DNA of 64,000 bases, from contig NZ_JH806633.1 in NCBI RefSeq assembly GCF_000295095.1, positions 533,424 through 597,423 of the forward strand. The letters run 5' to 3'. The DNA comes from Actinomyces timonensis DSM 23838. GTDB lineage: Bacteria; Actinomycetota; Actinomycetes; Actinomycetales; Actinomycetaceae. Both the position numbers and the translations under genes were made by a program. Position 1 is the stretch's first letter, and the number at the start of each line of letters is the position of its first letter. This document shows positions 18,377 to 64,000 of this stretch, piece after piece. The notes beneath the pieces were generated by a model that did no database searches, was not told the origin of the DNA, and was given only the letters and a program-made list of their open reading frames with translations.

Positions 18377-18619
18377 GTGGACATCCTCCGCATCATCCTC
18401 CAGGTGCTCCTCGTTATGTCGAGTTTCTTCCTCATCATGTCGATCCTCCTGCACAAGGGGAAGGGCGGCGGCCTGTCCGACATGTTCGGCGGAGGCATCT
18501 CCTCCTCGGCCGGCTCCTCCGGCGTCGCCGAGCGCAACCTCGACCGCATCACCGTGGGCGTCGGCCTCATGTGGAGCCTGACGATCATCGGCCTCGGGCT
18601 CCTGGTGAAGCTCTCCTGA
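18377..18619 (+). CDS. secG: preprotein translocase subunit SecG
   Basis: SecG is the small auxiliary subunit of the SecYEG channel. The 80-residue protein has two hydrophobic helices (about 3-23 and 57-77) joined by the conserved polar loop [16 protein letters not shown]. The GTG start has GAAAGGACG upstream. A TAGAGT hexamer at about 18278 is a possible -10 element. The position after tpiA is typical of actinobacteria. Its last bases overlap the beginning of the xerD frame. Confidence 0.95.
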
Positions 18620-19596
18620 CCGCCTCATCCAGCCGCGCAGCAGACCCGCGCGGGGACGCCCTCGAGCGATCCCTGCGCGGGTATCTTGCGCATCTGCGGG
18701 TCGAGCGGGGCCTGAGCGAGAACACCCTGGCCGCCTACCTGCGGGACCTCTCGCGGTACACCGCTTTCCTCAGGGAGCGCGGGATCACCGCGCCCGGCGC
18801 CGTCGCCGAGGAGGACGTCGCCGCCTTCTCCCAGGCCATCCGCACCGGCGAGGACGGCGGGCGGGCCCTGGCGGCCTCCTCAGCCGCGCGCACGGTCACG
18901 GCGGTGCGCGGCTGGCACCGATTCCTCCTCGATGAGGGGACCACGCCGACGGACCCCTCGGCGGCCGTCCGCCCCCCGCAGGTCGGGCGCCGCCTGCCCA
19001 AGGCCCTCAGCGTCGAGGAGGTGCGCGCGCTCCTGGAGGCGGCCGCCGTCGACGACTCGCCCGTGAGCCTGCGCGACCGCGCCCTGCTGGAGATCCTCTA
19101 CGCCACCGGGGCCCGCATCTCCGAGGCCGTCGGCCTCGTCGTCGACGACCTCGATGCGGGCAGCGGCGTCCTCCGGCTGTTCGGCAAGGGCCGTAAGGAG
19201 CGGATCGTCCCCATGGGGCAGTACGCCTGGGCGGCGCTCGACGCCTACCTCGTGCGGGGGAGGCCGAGCCTTGCCGCCAAGGGCAGGGGAGTGCCCGAGG
19301 TCTTCCTCAACACACTCGGGCGGCCCCTGTCCCGCCAGACGGCGTGGAGCATCCTCCAGCAGGCCGCCGCCCGGGCGGGCCTCACCGGCGACGGCGCTGA
19401 CGGGGGCGAGCGGCATATCTCGCCCCACACGCTGCGCCACTCCTTCGCCACCCACCTGCTCGCGGGCGGGGCGGACGTGCGCGTCGTCCAGGAGATGCTC
19501 GGGCACGCCTCGGTGACCACCACCCAGATCTACACGAAGGTGACCGTCGACCACCTCAGGGAGGTCTACGCCACGAGCCATCCCCGGGCTCACTGA
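18571..19596 (+). CDS. xerD: site-specific tyrosine recombinase XerD
   Basis: XerD acts with XerC at dif to resolve chromosome dimers. The catalytic tyrosine-recombinase residues are visible: Arg in [12 protein letters not shown], Lys in [19 protein letters not shown] (His and Arg), [12 protein letters not shown] (His and nucleophile Tyr). The SAM-like N-terminal core-binding domain begins at [18 protein letters not shown]. The start is uncertain. GTG at 18571 is the only canonical in-frame codon near the domain, but it overlaps secG by 49 bases and lacks a ribosome-binding site. CTG at 18616 makes a CTGA overlap with the secG stop and gives a 326-residue protein closer to family length. A good dif site lies at 63144-63171. 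Confidence 0.92.
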
Positions 19597-19640
19597 TGAT
19601 GCCTACTGATGATTCCAGTGCCGTCCGCTACCCTGGCCCT

Positions 19641-20504
19641 GTGAGTGACTCCAAGCAGCCCGGCCTGATCGACCTTCCCGCCCCTGAGCAGAAGGAGTTC
19701 CCCGTCCCCGCGCCCCTGGAGTCCCACGGGCCGGCACGGATCATCTCCATGTGCAACCAGAAGGGCGGCGTCGGCAAGACGACGACGACCATCAGCCTGG
19801 GGGCCTCCCTCGTGGAGTACGGGCGCAAGGTGCTCATCGTCGACTTCGACCCGCAGGGCGCCGCCTCGGCGGGCCTCGGCGTCAACGCCAACGAGCTCGA
19901 CACGACGATCTACGACCTCCTCGTGGCCGCCCGCCCGGACATCCTGCCGGTCATCCACGAGACCTCCATGCCGGGGCTCGACCTCGTGCCCGCCAACATC
20001 GACCTGTCCGCCGCGGAGGTCCAGCTCGTCAACGAGGTCGCCCGCGAGCAGGCGCTCGCCCGGGTGCTGCGCCCCGTCGTCGACGACTACGACGCCATCA
20101 TCGTGGACTGCCAGCCCTCTCTCGGCCTGCTCACGGTCAACGCGCTGACCGCCTCCCACGGCGTCATCATCCCGCTGGAGACCGAGTACTTCGCCCTGCG
20201 CGGCGTGGCCCTCCTCGTGGAGACCGTCGAGCGGATCAAGGACCGCCTCAACCCGCGCCTCGACATCGACGGCATCCTCGCCACCATGGTCGACTCCCGC
20301 ACCCTGCACTCGCGCGAGGTCCTGGAGCGACTCGAGCAGGCCTTCGGCGAGCGCCTCTTCGACACGCGGATCCGCCGCACCGTCAAGTTCCCCGACGCCT
20401 CCGTGGCCGCCGAGCCCATCAACACCTACGCCCCCACGCACGCGGGCACCGAGGCCTACCGGCGCCTGGCCCGGGAGATCATCGCTCGCGGCTGTGTCGC
20501 CTGA
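19641..20504 (+). CDS. parA: ParA-family ATPase (Soj-like, ScpA-associated)
   Basis: This is a deviant-Walker ParA ATPase, similar to the one next to scpAB in Mycobacterium (Rv1708). The signature CNQKGGVGKTTTTISLG contains both Walker A lysines; VLIVDFDPQGAASAGLG and IIVDCQPSLGLLTVNAL follow. The product is 287 residues. GTG at 19641 is preceded by TACCCT and six bases, suggesting a leaderless start. An in-frame ATG at 19596 that overlaps the xerD stop would add 15 residues and cannot be excluded. ScpA begins inside its last codons, so the two are coupled. No ParB or parS is next to it, so this is probably not the origin-proximal partition ATPase. Confidence 0.9.
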   Translation: MSDSKQPGLIDLPAPEQKEFPVPAPLESHGPARIISMCNQKGGVGKTTTTISLGASLVEYGRKVLIVDFDPQGAASAGLGVNANELDTTIYDLLVAARPDILPVIHETSMPGLDLVPANIDLSAAEVQLVNEVAREQALARVLRPVVDDYDAIIVDCQPSLGLLTVNALTASHGVIIPLETEYFALRGVALLVETVERIKDRLNPRLDIDGILATMVDSRTLHSREVLERLEQAFGERLFDTRIRRTVKFPDASVAAEPINTYAPTHAGTEAYRRLAREIIARGCVA

Positions 20505-21387
20505 CGACGCCGCAGCGCCCCGGAAAGCGGGGACGCCCGGGAGCGCTGGGGCGCCCGAGGCCGTCCGGGAGCACGAGGGCGCCGAGCAGGAGGGACCCGC
20601 GCGGCTCCCCGGCTTCTCCGTCAGCCTGCCCCAGTTCGAGGGCCCCTTCGACCTCCTTCTCAGCCTCATCGCCCGGCGCCGTCTCGACGTCACCGAGCTC
20701 GCCCTGGCCGAGGTGACCGACGAGTTCATAGCGCATATGCGCGCCGACTGGGACCTCGGGCACGCCAGCGAGTTCGTCGTCGTGGCCTCCACGCTCCTCG
20801 CCCTCAAGGCCCACCGCCTCCTGCCCCACGTGGACGGGGAGGAGGATGAGGACCTGGAGCTCCTGGAGGCCCGCGACCTCCTCTTCGCCCGGCTCCTCCA
20901 GTACCGGGCCTACAAGCGGGCCGCCGCCGCCCTGCACGAGATGTCCACCGCCGCGGCCACCGCCCACCCGCGCGTCGTCGCGCTCGCGCCCGAGCTCGCC
21001 TCCCTGCTGCCCAAGCTCGTCGCCAACGTCGGTCCCGCCGAGCTCGCCCGCATCGCCCTGGCGGCCTTCAACCGGCCCGATGCCCCCGGCGTGCAGACCG
21101 TCCACCTCCACGAGGCCGTGCCCGTCAGCGAGCAGATCACGGTGCTCGCCCTGCGGCTGCGCTCCGCCGGGACTCTCACATTCTCCGAGCTCACGGGCGA
21201 CGCGGACCGGGTGGCCGTCGTCGTCGCCCGCTTCCTGGGGCTGCTCATCCTGCACCGCCAGGGCAGCGTCGACCTGGAGCAGGGCGAGGCCATGGGGGAG
21301 ATCACGGTGTCCTGGTGCGGCGGGGACGACGATCTGACAGGCATCATGGCCCCGGATATGGAGGGTCTGGGGGAGGAGTTCTCATGA
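20494..21387 (+). CDS. scpA: segregation and condensation protein A
   Basis: ScpA is the kleisin of the Smc-ScpAB condensin. The 297-residue product has the typical N-terminal kleisin segment SLPQFEGPFDLLLSLIARRRLDV (seen as SLPQFEGPFDLLLSLIARRR), then FVVVASTLLALKAHRLLP. The C-terminal winged helix ends in RFLGLLILHRQG. A GTG at 20494 overlaps the end of parA by 11 bases. The first 45 residues are a low-complexity extension. The gene overlaps scpB by four bases (ATGA). Confidence 0.94.
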   Translation: MSPDDAAAPRKAGTPGSAGAPEAVREHEGAEQEGPARLPGFSVSLPQFEGPFDLLLSLIARRRLDVTELALAEVTDEFIAHMRADWDLGHASEFVVVASTLLALKAHRLLPHVDGEEDEDLELLEARDLLFARLLQYRAYKRAAAALHEMSTAAATAHPRVVALAPELASLLPKLVANVGPAELARIALAAFNRPDAPGVQTVHLHEAVPVSEQITVLALRLRSAGTLTFSELTGDADRVAVVVARFLGLLILHRQGSVDLEQGEAMGEITVSWCGGDDDLTGIMAPDMEGLGEEFS

Positions 21388-22082
21388 GCGCGGATGCGTC
21401 GGCGGGGCAGGCCGTCCCGGAGGCCGACGGCGAGGAGGCGCGCGCCGCAGAGGGCGCGGTTGGTGCCGTTTCGGCTGCCGCGAGCGATGAGCTCCTGGCC
21501 GCGGCAGAGGCGGTGCTCGTCGTCTCCGACGAGCCGGTGACCGCCGCCGCGCTCGGCGCCGCCCTCGGTTTGGAGGAGAAGGAGGCCGAGGCGCTGCTGG
21601 AGGCCCTGGCCGCCGAGTACCGGGGCGAGGCTGCCGCGGGGACCACGGCGGGGGCAGGCGCGGGGACGCCCGGGCGCCGTCGGGGGTTCATCCTGCGGCG
21701 CGTCGCCGGGGGATGGCGGCTCGCCTCAGCGCCCGAGCACGCCGGGATCGTGGAGAGCTTCGTCGTCGGCGGGGCCGCCGCGCGCCTGTCCCAAGCCGCC
21801 CTGGAGACCCTCGCCGTCATCGCCTACCGCCAGCCCGTCACCCGCGGGCGGATCGCCGCGATCCGCGGGGTCAACGTCGACGGCGTCGTGCGCACGCTCC
21901 ACGCCCGCGGGCTCATCGAGGAAGCCGGCAATGAGACCTCCGGCGCGATCCTCTACCGTACGACCAACGAGTTCCTCGAGTACCTCGGGATCGACAGCCT
22001 CGACGGGCTGCCGCCCCTGGCACCCCACCTCCCGGACGCCTCCCAGTTGGAGGACATCGAGCATGAGACGGAGACGCGATGA
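21384..22082 (+). CDS. scpB: segregation and condensation protein B
   Basis: ScpB dimerises and binds ScpA in the Smc condensin. The 232-residue product contains two winged-helix domains. The family signature LSQAALETLAVIAYRQPVTR, with RGVNVDGVVRTLHARGLIE after it, is clear. The start at 21384 has GGAGGAG upstream and overlaps the scpA stop. An Ala/Gly-rich linker (about 95-108) divides the first domain, which is longer than usual. It overlaps the following pseudouridine synthase gene by four bases, so the operon is translationally coupled throughout. Confidence 0.94.
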   Translation: MSADASAGQAVPEADGEEARAAEGAVGAVSAAASDELLAAAEAVLVVSDEPVTAAALGAALGLEEKEAEALLEALAAEYRGEAAAGTTAGAGAGTPGRRRGFILRRVAGGWRLASAPEHAGIVESFVVGGAAARLSQAALETLAVIAYRQPVTRGRIAAIRGVNVDGVVRTLHARGLIEEAGNETSGAILYRTTNEFLEYLGIDSLDGLPPLAPHLPDASQLEDIEHETETR

Positions 22083-60692: not shown

Positions 60693-61700
60693 TCAGGTCG
60701 TCCGGCCGACGACGAGCTCGACGGGGAGCTCCATCGGTGCGGTCTCCCGCTCCCGCAGCTCGACGCCGTCGTGAACCGCCTCGATCTGGGCGAGCAGCTC
60801 GGCGACGGCGCGGCGCGCGATCTGGTCGATGGGCTGGCGGATGGTGGTCAGGCCCGGCATGGCCTGGCGGACGGCCTGCGTGCCGTCGAAGCCGATGACC
60901 CGCAGGTCCTCGGGAACGCGCATGCCCGCCAGGCGCGCCCATTCCACGACGCCGGCGGCGGTGAGGTCATCGGTGGCGAATACGGCGTCGAAATGGCCGA
61001 TGCGATTGGTCAGCTCCTCGGCGATGCGCTGGGTGCGCTCCGGCTCAGGGGTGTTGAAGACGACGGCGACGATCTGGGGCTCGATGCCGGAGCGGGCCAG
61101 CGCGGCGCGGTAGCCGGCCTCGCGGCCGTTGCGGCTTCCCGTGCGCGAGGTGAGGAGCAGCGGGCGGCGCGACCCGCGCGCCAGGAGGTGCTCGGTGGCG
61201 AGGACGCCTCCCCGGGCGTTGTCGCAGCGGATATTGGGGATGGTGGGGGAGAGGTCGCGGTCGATCATGACCAGCGGCATCCTCACCGTGCCGTAGTCGG
61301 CGAGGTCCTCGTTGTGAGCCGAGGAGATGATGCCGTCCACCCTGTGGGAGACGAGCAGGTCGAGGTACTCGCGCTCGCGCTCGGCGCGCCCCTGGGAATT
61401 GCAGACGAGGATGCGGTAGCCGTGCTCCGCGAGGGCGACCTCGAGCCGTGCGGCGAGCTCGCCGAAGAAGGGAAGGGCGACCGTCGGCACGATGACGCCG
61501 ATGCTCTGGGTGGCCATGCCGTGGAGGGCGCGCGCGATCTGGTTCGGCCGGTAGTTGAGCTCCGCGATGGCGGCGCCGACCCTCTCCTTCGTCGTCTCGC
61601 TGAGGTACCCGCGGTTGTTGAGAACCCGAGACACCGTGGTCAGCGAGACACCCGCGAGCTCGGCGACGTCGGCGAGCGTCGGCTCTCGGCGCTGAGGCAC
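60693..61700 (-). CDS. LacI-family transcriptional regulator
   Basis: The 335-residue product has the LacI helix-turn-helix (TLADVAELAGVSLTTVSRVL) and hinge (NYRPNQIARALHG), then a periplasmic-binding-like sugar domain (SIGVIVPTVALPFFGEL; DAVFATDDLTAAGVVEWAR). It is convergent with the PTS EIIBCA gene and probably represses it in the absence of a sugar. The GTG start has AGGAG upstream. A TTGAG-CTCAA palindrome lies just upstream and may be its own operator. Confidence 0.92.
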   Translation of the reverse strand: MPQRREPTLADVAELAGVSLTTVSRVLNNRGYLSETTKERVGAAIAELNYRPNQIARALHGMATQSIGVIVPTVALPFFGELAARLEVALAEHGYRILVCNSQGRAEREREYLDLLVSHRVDGIISSAHNEDLADYGTVRMPLVMIDRDLSPTIPNIRCDNARGGVLATEHLLARGSRRPLLLTSRTGSRNGREAGYRAALARSGIEPQIVAVVFNTPEPERTQRIAEELTNRIGHFDAVFATDDLTAAGVVEWARLAGMRVPEDLRVIGFDGTQAVRQAMPGLTTIRQPIDQIARRAVAELLAQIEAVHDGVELRERETAPMELPVELVVGRTT

Positions 61701-61715
61701 AGCAACTCCTATGTC

Positions 61716-61732
61716 TTGAGGTCAGGACTCAA
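61716..61732. promoter_or_regulatory. candidate LacI-type operator
   Basis: TTGAG-gtcagga-CTCAA is a 17-bp palindrome centred 24 bases upstream of the LacI-family start codon. A second, unrelated hairpin (CGCGGGCA/TGCCCGCG, 61734-61755) next to it probably ends the upstream SGNH hydrolase transcript. Confidence 0.45.
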
Positions 61733-61767
61733 CCGCGGGCAAGCCTATGCCCGCGCGCGGCGCGCTG

Positions 61768-62475
61768 CTACAGCGGGACGCCGCCGTCCGACGGCGCGGC
61801 AGAGGATGGGGGAGAGGGGGCCAGATCTGGGACCATCTCGCGATAGACAGTGATCATGGCGCGGGCAATCGCCGCGTGACCGGCGTCGTTGGGGTGGATG
61901 CCGTCGATCGCGAGCTTGTTCTCATCGCCGTCGATCGCCATGCTCATGGCGTCAGTAGAGGCCAGGCCGAGGCCGGTGGCGTGGTCATGGACGAGCCGGT
62001 GGATGATGCTGAATCGCGGCCCGACGCCGAGCGCCGGGAAGTAGGGGGCGACGATCGTGGGGACGCCCGGAAGCCGCTCGGCGAGGAACGAGAGGTCATG
62101 CTCGATGGCCTGCTCGACGAGGTCGCGCTGGGAGGGCAGGAGGGCGGCGTCATTGAGGCCCAGGCAGACGGTGACCACGTCGGGCTCGGCGCGCAGGACC
62201 GTCTCGAGCCAGGTGGTGTCCCGGCACGAGGGGGAGCGGCCGCCCCCGGGCAGCTTCCCGCCGCGCCGGCAGAAGAAGCCGATGCCGTCGGCGGCCAGGC
62301 TCGCCTCGCGCCAGCGCAGGTGCTCGCAGACAAGTGACGAGAAGCGGTTGCGGGGGTGGCTGACCGATCTCCACCCCGTGACGATGGAGTCGCCGAGGAA
62401 GACGGCGGTGGGGTGGGGTGTCAATTGGGGGACCGTTGGGCCATCCGGTCCCGCTGGCGGGTCTGTGGGTGCCAT
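61768..62475 (-). CDS. SGNH/GDSL-type hydrolase
   Basis: The 235-residue product is an esterase/lipase of the SGNH fold: block I AVFLGDSIVTGW with the nucleophile Ser, block III CLGLNDAALLP with Asn, and block V DGIHPNDAGHAAIA with the catalytic Asp and His. No signal peptide is visible, so it is likely cytoplasmic. The Pro-rich ends are not conserved. Substrate unknown. It lies upstream of the LacI gene on the same strand. Confidence 0.9.
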   Translation of the reverse strand: MAPTDPPAGPDGPTVPQLTPHPTAVFLGDSIVTGWRSVSHPRNRFSSLVCEHLRWREASLAADGIGFFCRRGGKLPGGGRSPSCRDTTWLETVLRAEPDVVTVCLGLNDAALLPSQRDLVEQAIEHDLSFLAERLPGVPTIVAPYFPALGVGPRFSIIHRLVHDHATGLGLASTDAMSMAIDGDENKLAIDGIHPNDAGHAAIARAMITVYREMVPDLAPSPPSSAAPSDGGVPL

Positions 62476-62707
62476 ACGGCGAGCCTAGGCCCGCTGAGCA
62501 CGACGGCGCAGGTCGATGGGGGCGCGCGCGTGACCGCGCACTTGTGAGCGGGGCTGGACGGCTGGGCCGGGCGGTTGGATCGGGCGACGGGAAAGGAAAA
62601 ACGAGCCGCGAACACACTTATGTCATTTCGCGGCAAAGCGCCCGACTACCAGCCTCCTCTCAGGTTGCTCAGGGCTTCGACGAAGGTCGCGGTCCTAGCG
62701 TCCCATC

Positions 62708-63076
62708 ATGGCCGGAAGTAGTTCCGCTGAGACAGGGACAGGGATGTCGGAGACGATCTACATCGATGAGTCGGGAGCGCCGATCGAGGCGCCGCACGAC
62801 CGCTTCGGCGAGCTCTCGGGCGCCTTCGGTGAGGGAGTCCCGGGATCCTTGAGCCGCAGCGTCCTGGCGCCCGTGTGGCGCACCGGCATCTGCGCGGGAG
62901 CCATCCTGGCCTGCGTCGGGCTGCTCGCGATCATCCTCGGGCGCGGAGCGGCCGCGCTCGTGCTGTGGCCGCTGGGCGCCTTCGGGCTGGTCGTGGGAAC
63001 GACGATCATGATGGTGACCTTCCGGGCGCGCCGGCTGGTGCTCGCCATGGCGAGCACGGAGGAGGGGCCCGTCTGA
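62708..63076 (+). CDS. small membrane protein, two helices
   Basis: The 122-residue protein has a polar N-terminus of about 60 residues, then two hydrophobic helices (GICAGAILACVGLLAIILG and ALVLWPLGAFGLVVGTTIM) and a short basic end. I recognise no family. The ATG at 62708 has TAGCGT and six bases before it, suggesting a leaderless mRNA; ATG at 62744 with GGGACAGGG upstream is an alternative. It lies just left of the dif site. Confidence 0.7.
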   Translation: MAGSSSAETGTGMSETIYIDESGAPIEAPHDRFGELSGAFGEGVPGSLSRSVLAPVWRTGICAGAILACVGLLAIILGRGAAALVLWPLGAFGLVVGTTIMMVTFRARRLVLAMASTEEGPV

Positions 63077-63143
63077 GACGGACGGGCGAGCGGCGCCAGT
63101 CCTGGACAAGCCCGGGCAAGTGTGGCATCGCCACTCCCACCGA

Positions 63144-63171
63144 AAATGACATAATGTCCATTATCGGCGTT
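63144..63171 (-). other. dif: chromosomal dif site (XerCD recombination site)
   Basis: On the minus strand the 28 bases read as a XerC arm AACGCCGATAA, a 6-bp centre TGGACA and a XerD arm TTATGTCATTT. Both inner half-arms (GATAA and TTATGTCA) and the 11-6-11 layout match bacterial dif sites, and the core CCGATAAT...ACATTATGTCA agrees with what I recall of the actinobacterial consensus. It is AT-rich in GC-rich surroundings and intergenic. XerD is encoded at 18571-19596. Confidence 0.82.
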
Positions 63172-63246
63172 AGGTGAGTGGGTTTGGCTTCTCAGCACGA
63201 TGCTTGTTGCGGCCTCAGTGCGACGCCGTCCGGCACAATCGTGTGC

Positions 63247-63384
63247 GTGACTGATGGAAGGACTGATGCACAGACCGCCGCTGACAAGCACGACGTCATT
63301 CCCATGCGCAGGCTGACAGTGTTCACCGGAACACCGAATCTCGCCCGGTACGTCAAGCAGGAGGACGACCATGCCCTCTCCTGA
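63247..63384 (+). CDS. possible 45-residue protein or leader ORF before GNAT gene
   Basis: A GTG at 63247 follows CACAAT and seven bases, a possible leaderless start. The frame reads to a TGA that lies 14 bases inside the GNAT gene, so it could couple translation to it. No family is recognised and chance is possible. Confidence 0.25.
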   Translation: MTDGRTDAQTAADKHDVIPMRRLTVFTGTPNLARYVKQEDDHALS

Positions 63385-64000
63385 GACCAAGGGCCATGGA
63401 CGCTCCGAAGCGGTACAGACCTACGGGATCCGCCCGGCGACCATGTCGGACTCCCCCGCGATCCGCCAGATCCGCAACGCCGCCGTGCGGGAGTCCCTGG
63501 CCATCTGGACCAGCGTCGAGCAGGATCCCACTGGCGCCGAGGCCTGGCTGGCCCCCATGGTGCGGCGCGGAACGGCTCTTGTCGCCCATGTCACCGGGAG
63601 GCCGCAGGACGTCGTCGGCTTCGCGGTGGCCGGACCCTGGCACTCCTACGAGGGCTACGCCCGCACAGTCGAGGACTCGATCTACCTCAGCCCGGCCGCT
63701 CAAGGCAAAGGGCTCGGTGCCAGGCTCCTTGCCGCCCTGATCGAAGCCTCACAAAGGGCCGGAGACCGCACCATGATCGCCCTCATCGAGGCGGGTAACG
63801 TGACCTCGGTGCACCTGCACGAGCGCTATGGTTTCACCACTGTCGGCACTATCCCGCAGGCCGGCGAGAAGCACGGTCAGGTCCTCGACCTGACCCTCAT
63901 GAGCCGTTACCTGAAAGGACCCACCATGTGCGGCAGCCAGAACAAGCCCATCGACGGCGACAGCCTCCGATGTGTTGACGCCGACCAGTCCATCGAGCTC
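63371..64000 (+). CDS. GNAT-family N-acetyltransferase (3'-truncated by window)
   Basis: The frame starts at ATG 63371 with CAGGAGGACG upstream and is still open at the last base (210 codons). Residues about 18-180 form a GNAT acetyltransferase of the phosphinothricin acetyltransferase type: IRPATMSDSPAIRQIRNAAV, then SIYLSPAAQGKGLGARLLAAL (acetyl-CoA loop, in part) and VTSVHLHERYGFTTVGTIPQ. Such proteins normally stop after a segment like LDLTLMSRYL. Here the frame runs on into GPTMCGSQNKPIDGDSLRCV, so it is either a fusion with a second domain or there is read-through of a missing stop. The internal ATG of that part has GAAAGGA upstream. Confidence 0.85.
   Translation, partial: MPSPETKGHGRSEAVQTYGIRPATMSDSPAIRQIRNAAVRESLAIWTSVEQDPTGAEAWLAPMVRRGTALVAHVTGRPQDVVGFAVAGPWHSYEGYARTVEDSIYLSPAAQGKGLGARLLAALIEASQRAGDRTMIALIEAGNVTSVHLHERYGFTTVGTIPQAGEKHGQVLDLTLMSRYLKGPTMCGSQNKPIDGDSLRCVDADQSIEL

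Follow-up and report, generated by a model that had tools for sequence, protein, structure and literature searches.

Near the right end of the window, as we call the whole stretch of 64,000 nucleotides from Actinomyces timonensis DSM 23838 analyzed here, a dif site is accompanied by a second, solitary copy of its XerD arm. In Bacillus subtilis, SMC unloading uses XerD-only sites apart from dif. Could the lone half-site be a site of this kind, or does it assist dimer resolution, belong to another regulator, mark a past integration, or merely reflect chance or common ancestry?

The dif site and the replication terminus

On the minus strand, 63144-63171 is AACGCCGATAA-TGGACA-TTATGTCATTT (XerC arm, centre, XerD arm), identical to the arms and the 11-6-11 geometry given for dif in the preliminary description.

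63144..63171, minus strand: dif (XerC arm 63161-63171, centre 63155-63160, XerD arm 63144-63154)
62230..62236, plus strand: innermost left GGGGGAG, KOPS-like, pointing toward dif
63451..63457, minus strand: innermost right GGGGGAG, KOPS-like, pointing toward dif

Searched with an actinobacterial dif pattern at up to three mismatches, the window contained one match (mean of 0.00 in 100 shuffles). At the same threshold, this was the sole dif-like match in the 2.93-Mb genome (four contigs); the site is single copy, as had been supposed, and no equally good site stands elsewhere in the genome to speak against it. A dif-like core was present in 75 of 79 genomes searched, this one counted (up to two mismatches), and the dif type of this window was found in 17 of the 158 genomes of a phylum-level draw. 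At locus L109, from the non-actinobacterial Cognatishimia, dif is identical to the actinobacterial core. As suggested beforehand, the genes adjoining dif differ between relatives; no dif-integrated element was noticed in these comparisons.

Polar motifs on both sides of dif had been proposed as a check. Across the window plus 26.6 kb beyond it, GGGGGAG points toward dif in 29 of 29 cases on the left and 13 of 13 on the right, and its orientation switches between 62230 and 63451. This switch at dif supports the earlier claim that the window reaches the replication terminus. A wider scan took in 463 kb of contig C2 (20 stretches together with the window as far as 63130); here, the octamer CGGGGGAG showed the strongest two-sided pointing toward dif (69 versus 3 on the left, 47 versus 0 on the right). 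Taken as a whole, GC skew changes sign at dif as expected, from -0.030 on the left to +0.023 on the right, yet single stretches scatter: on this contig, the 15 left stretches include nine with negative and five with positive skew, while the eight right stretches are split into four positive and four negative. The initiator gene dnaA lies on contig C1 and dif on contig C2. The latter contig also holds 20 kb with a G+C content of 0.558 (G000:C2:138001-158000, G000 being this genome), most of the contig being near 0.71; this stretch is perhaps a mobile element.

The gene xerD lies 43.5 kb from dif, matching the approximately 44 kb first reported, and four consecutive genes occupy 18571-22082 on the plus strand:

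18571..19596, plus strand: xerD (TIGR02225, 333.4 bits, cut-off 329.6)
19596..20504, plus strand: ParA-like ATPase (family-level matches, each below the model cut-off)
20494..21387, plus strand: ScpA-like segregation/condensation protein A (best match 101.6 bits, below the model cut-offs)
21315..22082, plus strand: scpB (TIGR00281, 95.7 bits, cut-off 89.2)

FtsK-gamma is also encoded in the genome, as is a XerC-like protein that scores 304 bits against a model cut-off of 335, a cut-off reached by just two of 14 control genomes. With XerD, the set of dif partners is complete, the XerC-like protein being below its cut-off. The SMC model matches G000:C1:189940-194062 (minus strand) as two pieces in different open frames of 997 and 854 aa; either a disrupted frame or a misassembly could explain this. 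We conclude that 63144-63171 is almost certainly the chromosomal dif, where XerC and XerD would resolve dimers after GGGGGAG has guided FtsK inward, and that it is ordinary for its kind.

A lone XerD half-site beside dif

62618..62628, plus strand: TTATGTCATTT, a XerD half-site standing alone, with C before it at 62617 and pointing toward dif
62708..63076, plus strand: ORF of 122 aa between half-site and dif, with homologues adjoining dif in several Actinomyces

Exact copies of TTATGTCATTT number two in the 2.93-Mb genome, namely, the one in dif and the half-site; at up to one mismatch, the window holds two matches to the XerD arm against 0.02 expected. The half-site lies 515 bp from the XerD arm of dif, in the opposite orientation to that copy, between the innermost left KOPS-like motif and dif and 79 bp upstream of the 122-aa ORF. 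By eye, the product of this ORF is probably a small membrane protein; searches of Pfam and NCBIfam returned no match. Four related Actinomyces strongly conserve the block at 62640-62690, which lies upstream of the ORF and is perhaps its promoter or leader, and an Rfam search of 61500-64000 found no structural RNA. This genome does carry a lone half-site, which recurs, in a polar manner, beside dif in part of the actinobacteria.

Recurrence and polarity near dif in other loci

In a pool of 223 non-redundant dif loci that share the same XerD core, the 8-base core TTATGTCA occurs within 1 kb of dif 40 times pointing toward it and three times pointing away. Farther out in the same loci, 11 copies are spread over 1.76 Mb and both strands, the near flank amounting to 0.42 Mb. 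The distance of the sites from dif ranges from 222 to 994 bp. Of the 40 pointing toward it, 28 are on its XerC side and 12 on its XerD side. Sites are present in 38 of the 223 loci, spanning 30 groups of unrelated flanks; counted by flank group, 23 fall on the XerC side and seven on the XerD side, and the latter side, with seven groups toward and one away, is weak taken alone. The element is patchy across dif loci, with no exact TTATGTCA within 1 kb of dif in 185 of the 223.

Among 48 Actinomyces dif loci, our own counted, TTATGTCA is found 17 times within 1 kb, 16 of these toward dif, and twice at 1 to 8 kb. A scan of named genomes gave at least 119 loci, of which 80 made up a first sample; 69 of these formed the set not taken as Actinomyces, which contains one A. 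urinae as well as L109. This set holds 12 copies within 1 kb, 11 toward dif (six on the XerC side, five on the XerD side) and one away, and three farther out. The remaining 39 loci (30 fresh, nine duplicates) served as a held-out set, whose fresh loci gave one copy toward, none away, and three far, which is no excess by itself. An order-level draw of 100 regions, 96 of them new, comprised 68 loci with the same XerD core (11 toward, one away, four far) and 28 with other cores (one toward, four away). Three sets of loci outside the discovery genus together show 24 copies toward dif versus two away (2/0 in L084-095, from the order; 11/1 in L096-175, from named genomes; and 11/1 in L236-335, again from the order).

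Polarity is absent from the 30 other-core loci when pooled (two toward, four away, three far), and in the 28 that were tested for covariation, the locus's own XerD core did not recur near dif. Loci L266, L268, and L330, with TTATGTTA or TTATGTAA as the XerD core of dif, hold four near-dif copies of TTATGTCA, all pointing away. The one-mismatch core TTATGACA was counted four times toward and never away in 127 loci, twice toward and once away in the order-level draw (its 68 loci with the same core), and never toward and twice away in 12 loci with the dif core TTATGTTA. In E. coli K-12 (one genome), TTATGTTA is absent within 1 kb of dif, the nearest copy being 3.15 kb away.

When all 8-mers in the 127 loci were counted without bias, TTATGTCA ranked first of 16,183 (29 toward, two away). 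TTATGTC ranked first among 7-mers, and CTCGTTGGA and CTTATGTCA ranked first and second among 9-mers; words like TCGTTGGA probably reflect homologous genes adjoining dif. The 840 letter orderings of TTATGTCA have a mean toward count of 1.33, with runners-up at 13, 13, 11, and 10, followed by 9, and the orderings with these four highest scores are words that overlap TTATGTCA with a shift of 1 or 2 bases. Cores with one mismatch show little polarity near dif.

Anatomy and coding context of the half-sites

Beside 32 aligned half-sites, the XerC arm left no signal at any offset, and XerC-arm words were not enriched near dif in the 48 Actinomyces loci, on which grounds we reject a degenerate second dif. 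Just past the core, the 32 sites lean mildly to A/T, with 0.23, 0.59, and 0.31 bits at the three following positions, as does the XerD arm; unrelated positions score 0.33 to 0.42 bits in a few cases. In five Actinomyces of one clade with the dif centre GG (G000, G004, G017, G033, and G036), the 11 bases CTTATGTCATT are identical, and in four of them the flanks align yet differ. The fifth, at locus L052, has the site, and the 16 kb examined there contain nothing that matches the 122-aa gene.

Some sites lie within genes, which we named uvrA-like and GNAT by the look of their translations. In two relatives, the site is inside the uvrA-like gene, reads GAC ATA AGG, and changes a residue, the same position being GAT ATC AAC and GAC ATC GAC in two other relatives; here, the site bends a coding sequence. 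In five relatives, it lies inside the GNAT gene as ACT or GCT followed by TAT GTC A, and these five may owe it to common ancestry together with protein constraint. Among eight genes of the window, ATA encodes 1 of 149 Ile, TAT 2 of 59 Tyr, ACT 7 of 168 Thr, and AGG 13 of 232 Arg codons.

Copies away from dif

Across 21 Actinomyces genomes, we counted 48 copies of CTTATGTCA and 24 of the control word, its reversal; seven of the 48 are within 1 kb of dif. On 20 Actinomyces chromosomes (45 copies in all), those more than 1 kb from dif point toward it in 12 cases and away in 27, many of the latter being a copy in the ftsZ promoter, as seen in 13 genomes examined. Namely, AATGACATAAG, the XerD-arm 11-mer on the other strand, stands just upstream of ftsZ in all 13, which were chosen after a hint of a common copy and whose loci were located through nine of the 11 bases. 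The FtsZ model TIGR00065 matches in the three of these loci that were tested.

G000:C1:76037-76045, plus strand: ftsZ-upstream copy in this genome, from the AATGACATAAG search
L342, L345, L347, L348, L350, L351, L354, L356, L357, L359, L362, L363, L365: ftsZ-upstream AATGACATAAG loci

Next to AATGACATAAG, all 13 genomes have an inverted repeat resembling the FtsR operator, for which excerpts of PMC6683498 served as the comparison. Rfam detected no structural RNA in five loci around far copies. The copy upstream of ftsZ may be bound by XerD too, or it may be the site of another protein or a promoter element sharing the sequence.

Possible roles of the half-site

We put the chance that the lone half-site is a functional polar XerD-only site at about even. 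XerD would bind the half-site without XerC and, once bound, would halt or unload a motor coming into the terminus, possibly SMC-ScpAB, in a direction-dependent way. This reading is favored by the rarity of the 11-mer, its recurrence near dif, the fixed direction, the missing XerC arm, and conservation amid diverged flanks; it is weakened by the patchy distribution, by the held-out set with its weak result, by the excess of sites on the XerC side, and by the lack of covariation in other-core loci. SMC would account for roughly half of the credence given to such a site: unloading of SMC appears to be the likeliest role because xerD adjoins the scpA-like gene and scpB, and the action of XerD in B. 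subtilis makes SMC-ScpAB, by analogy, the likeliest motor. A symmetric SMC model does not predict the lean of 28 versus 12.

Second to a polar XerD-only site acting on SMC, we rank an accessory role in dimer resolution, in which bound XerD would contact FtsK-gamma or the XerCD-dif synapse and thereby pause FtsK or filter recombination. The genome does encode FtsK-gamma, the half-sites are within hundreds of bases of dif, ours is flanked by the innermost KOPS-like motif on one side and dif on the other, and the XerC-side lean suits a partner that is itself asymmetric. Yet the sites are missing from most loci (185 of 223), their distance from dif is anything from 222 to 994 bp, and the accessory sequences of the plasmid type are, according to excerpts of PMC5357621, approximately 180 bp long and involve other proteins. 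On balance, we regard this role as unlikely.

Actinomyces ftsZ promoters carry this 11-mer as a fixed feature, and another protein could therefore be the binder. The half-site would then be a site for another regulator, or a promoter element, that shares the XerD arm, has ftsZ as its main target, and here regulates the 122-aa gene. While the FtsR-like inverted repeat next to AATGACATAAG in 13 of 13 genomes and the position of our half-site 79 bp upstream of the ORF agree with this, regulation of the 122-aa gene is weakened by L052, which has the site without the gene, and by five loci (L056, L059, L071, L074, and L076) with the gene beside dif and no site upstream. Sites also occur inside the uvrA-like and GNAT genes, most sites outside Actinomyces lack the C found before the core at ftsZ, and the closeness to dif and the polarity are left unexplained. 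We consider this explanation improbable as well.

Far less probable is a scar of a Xer-integrated element, in which the half-site would be the remnant of another dif: the sites on the XerC side, 28 in number, are indeed direct repeats of the dif XerD arm, but direct copies are expected around such an insert, and the copy is inverted relative to dif in the window and in 12 of the 40 pooled cases; moreover, the uvrA-like and GNAT frames run through the site, and no XerC-arm remnant was found at any offset. Equally remote is chance, or common descent within a small number of lineages that sampling caused to seem general; this reading suits the lack of excess in the held-out set alone and in other-core loci but not the 30 flank groups, the 24 toward versus two away in three sets of loci outside the discovery genus, or the average of 1.33 and maximum of 13 for composition-matched words.

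A polar XerD-only site would have wider consequences. If XerD binds, dedicated XerD-only terminus sites would be suggested outside Bacillota, the fixed direction would mean one-way action of XerD on incoming motors, and SMC unloading in actinobacteria would become testable. A more ambitious version is quite doubtful: an actinobacterial class of such sites would face dif from either side and stop or unload SMC, FtsK, or replication forks, and the ftsZ-promoter copy in Actinomyces would make XerD a regulator tying terminus processing to division. In the portions of the open-licence literature available to us, we found no description of lone XerD half-sites near dif in actinobacteria.

Comparison with known systems

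Like Tus-Ter, the half-sites are polar and face the terminus; unlike it, their motif is the XerD arm, and they lie within 1 kb of dif. We reject a Tus-Ter fork trap, since a PF05472 search of this genome gave no match to the Tus family, the model detecting E. coli among 14 controls.

The KOPS of E. coli is GGGNAGGG, as quoted in an excerpt of PMC13342612. GGGGGAG resembles it in being G rich and polar, in pointing toward dif on both arms, and in switching there; it differs in sequence and is a candidate FtsK motif here. The dif itself shares the 11-6-11 layout and a near-identical core with chromosomal dif sites of XerCD systems, including the actinobacterial dif suggested for Frankia alni in excerpts of PMC3025954. 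A single copy and polar G-rich motifs that switch at the site are further common traits, and there is no essential difference, the dif of the window being known from its sequence.

The closest parallel to the half-sites comes from B. subtilis, where XerD unloads SMC near the terminus (Karaboja 2021, as reported in excerpts of papers citing it). As with the XerD sites of that species, the half-sites carry the XerD half without the XerC half (32 sites here) and are located in the terminus region, in our case within 1 kb of dif. We also count the position of xerD beside SMC-complex genes as a likeness to SMC unloading in B. subtilis. The fixed direction and the distance of less than 1 kb from dif set the half-sites, which are known from sequence alone, apart from the B. 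subtilis case.
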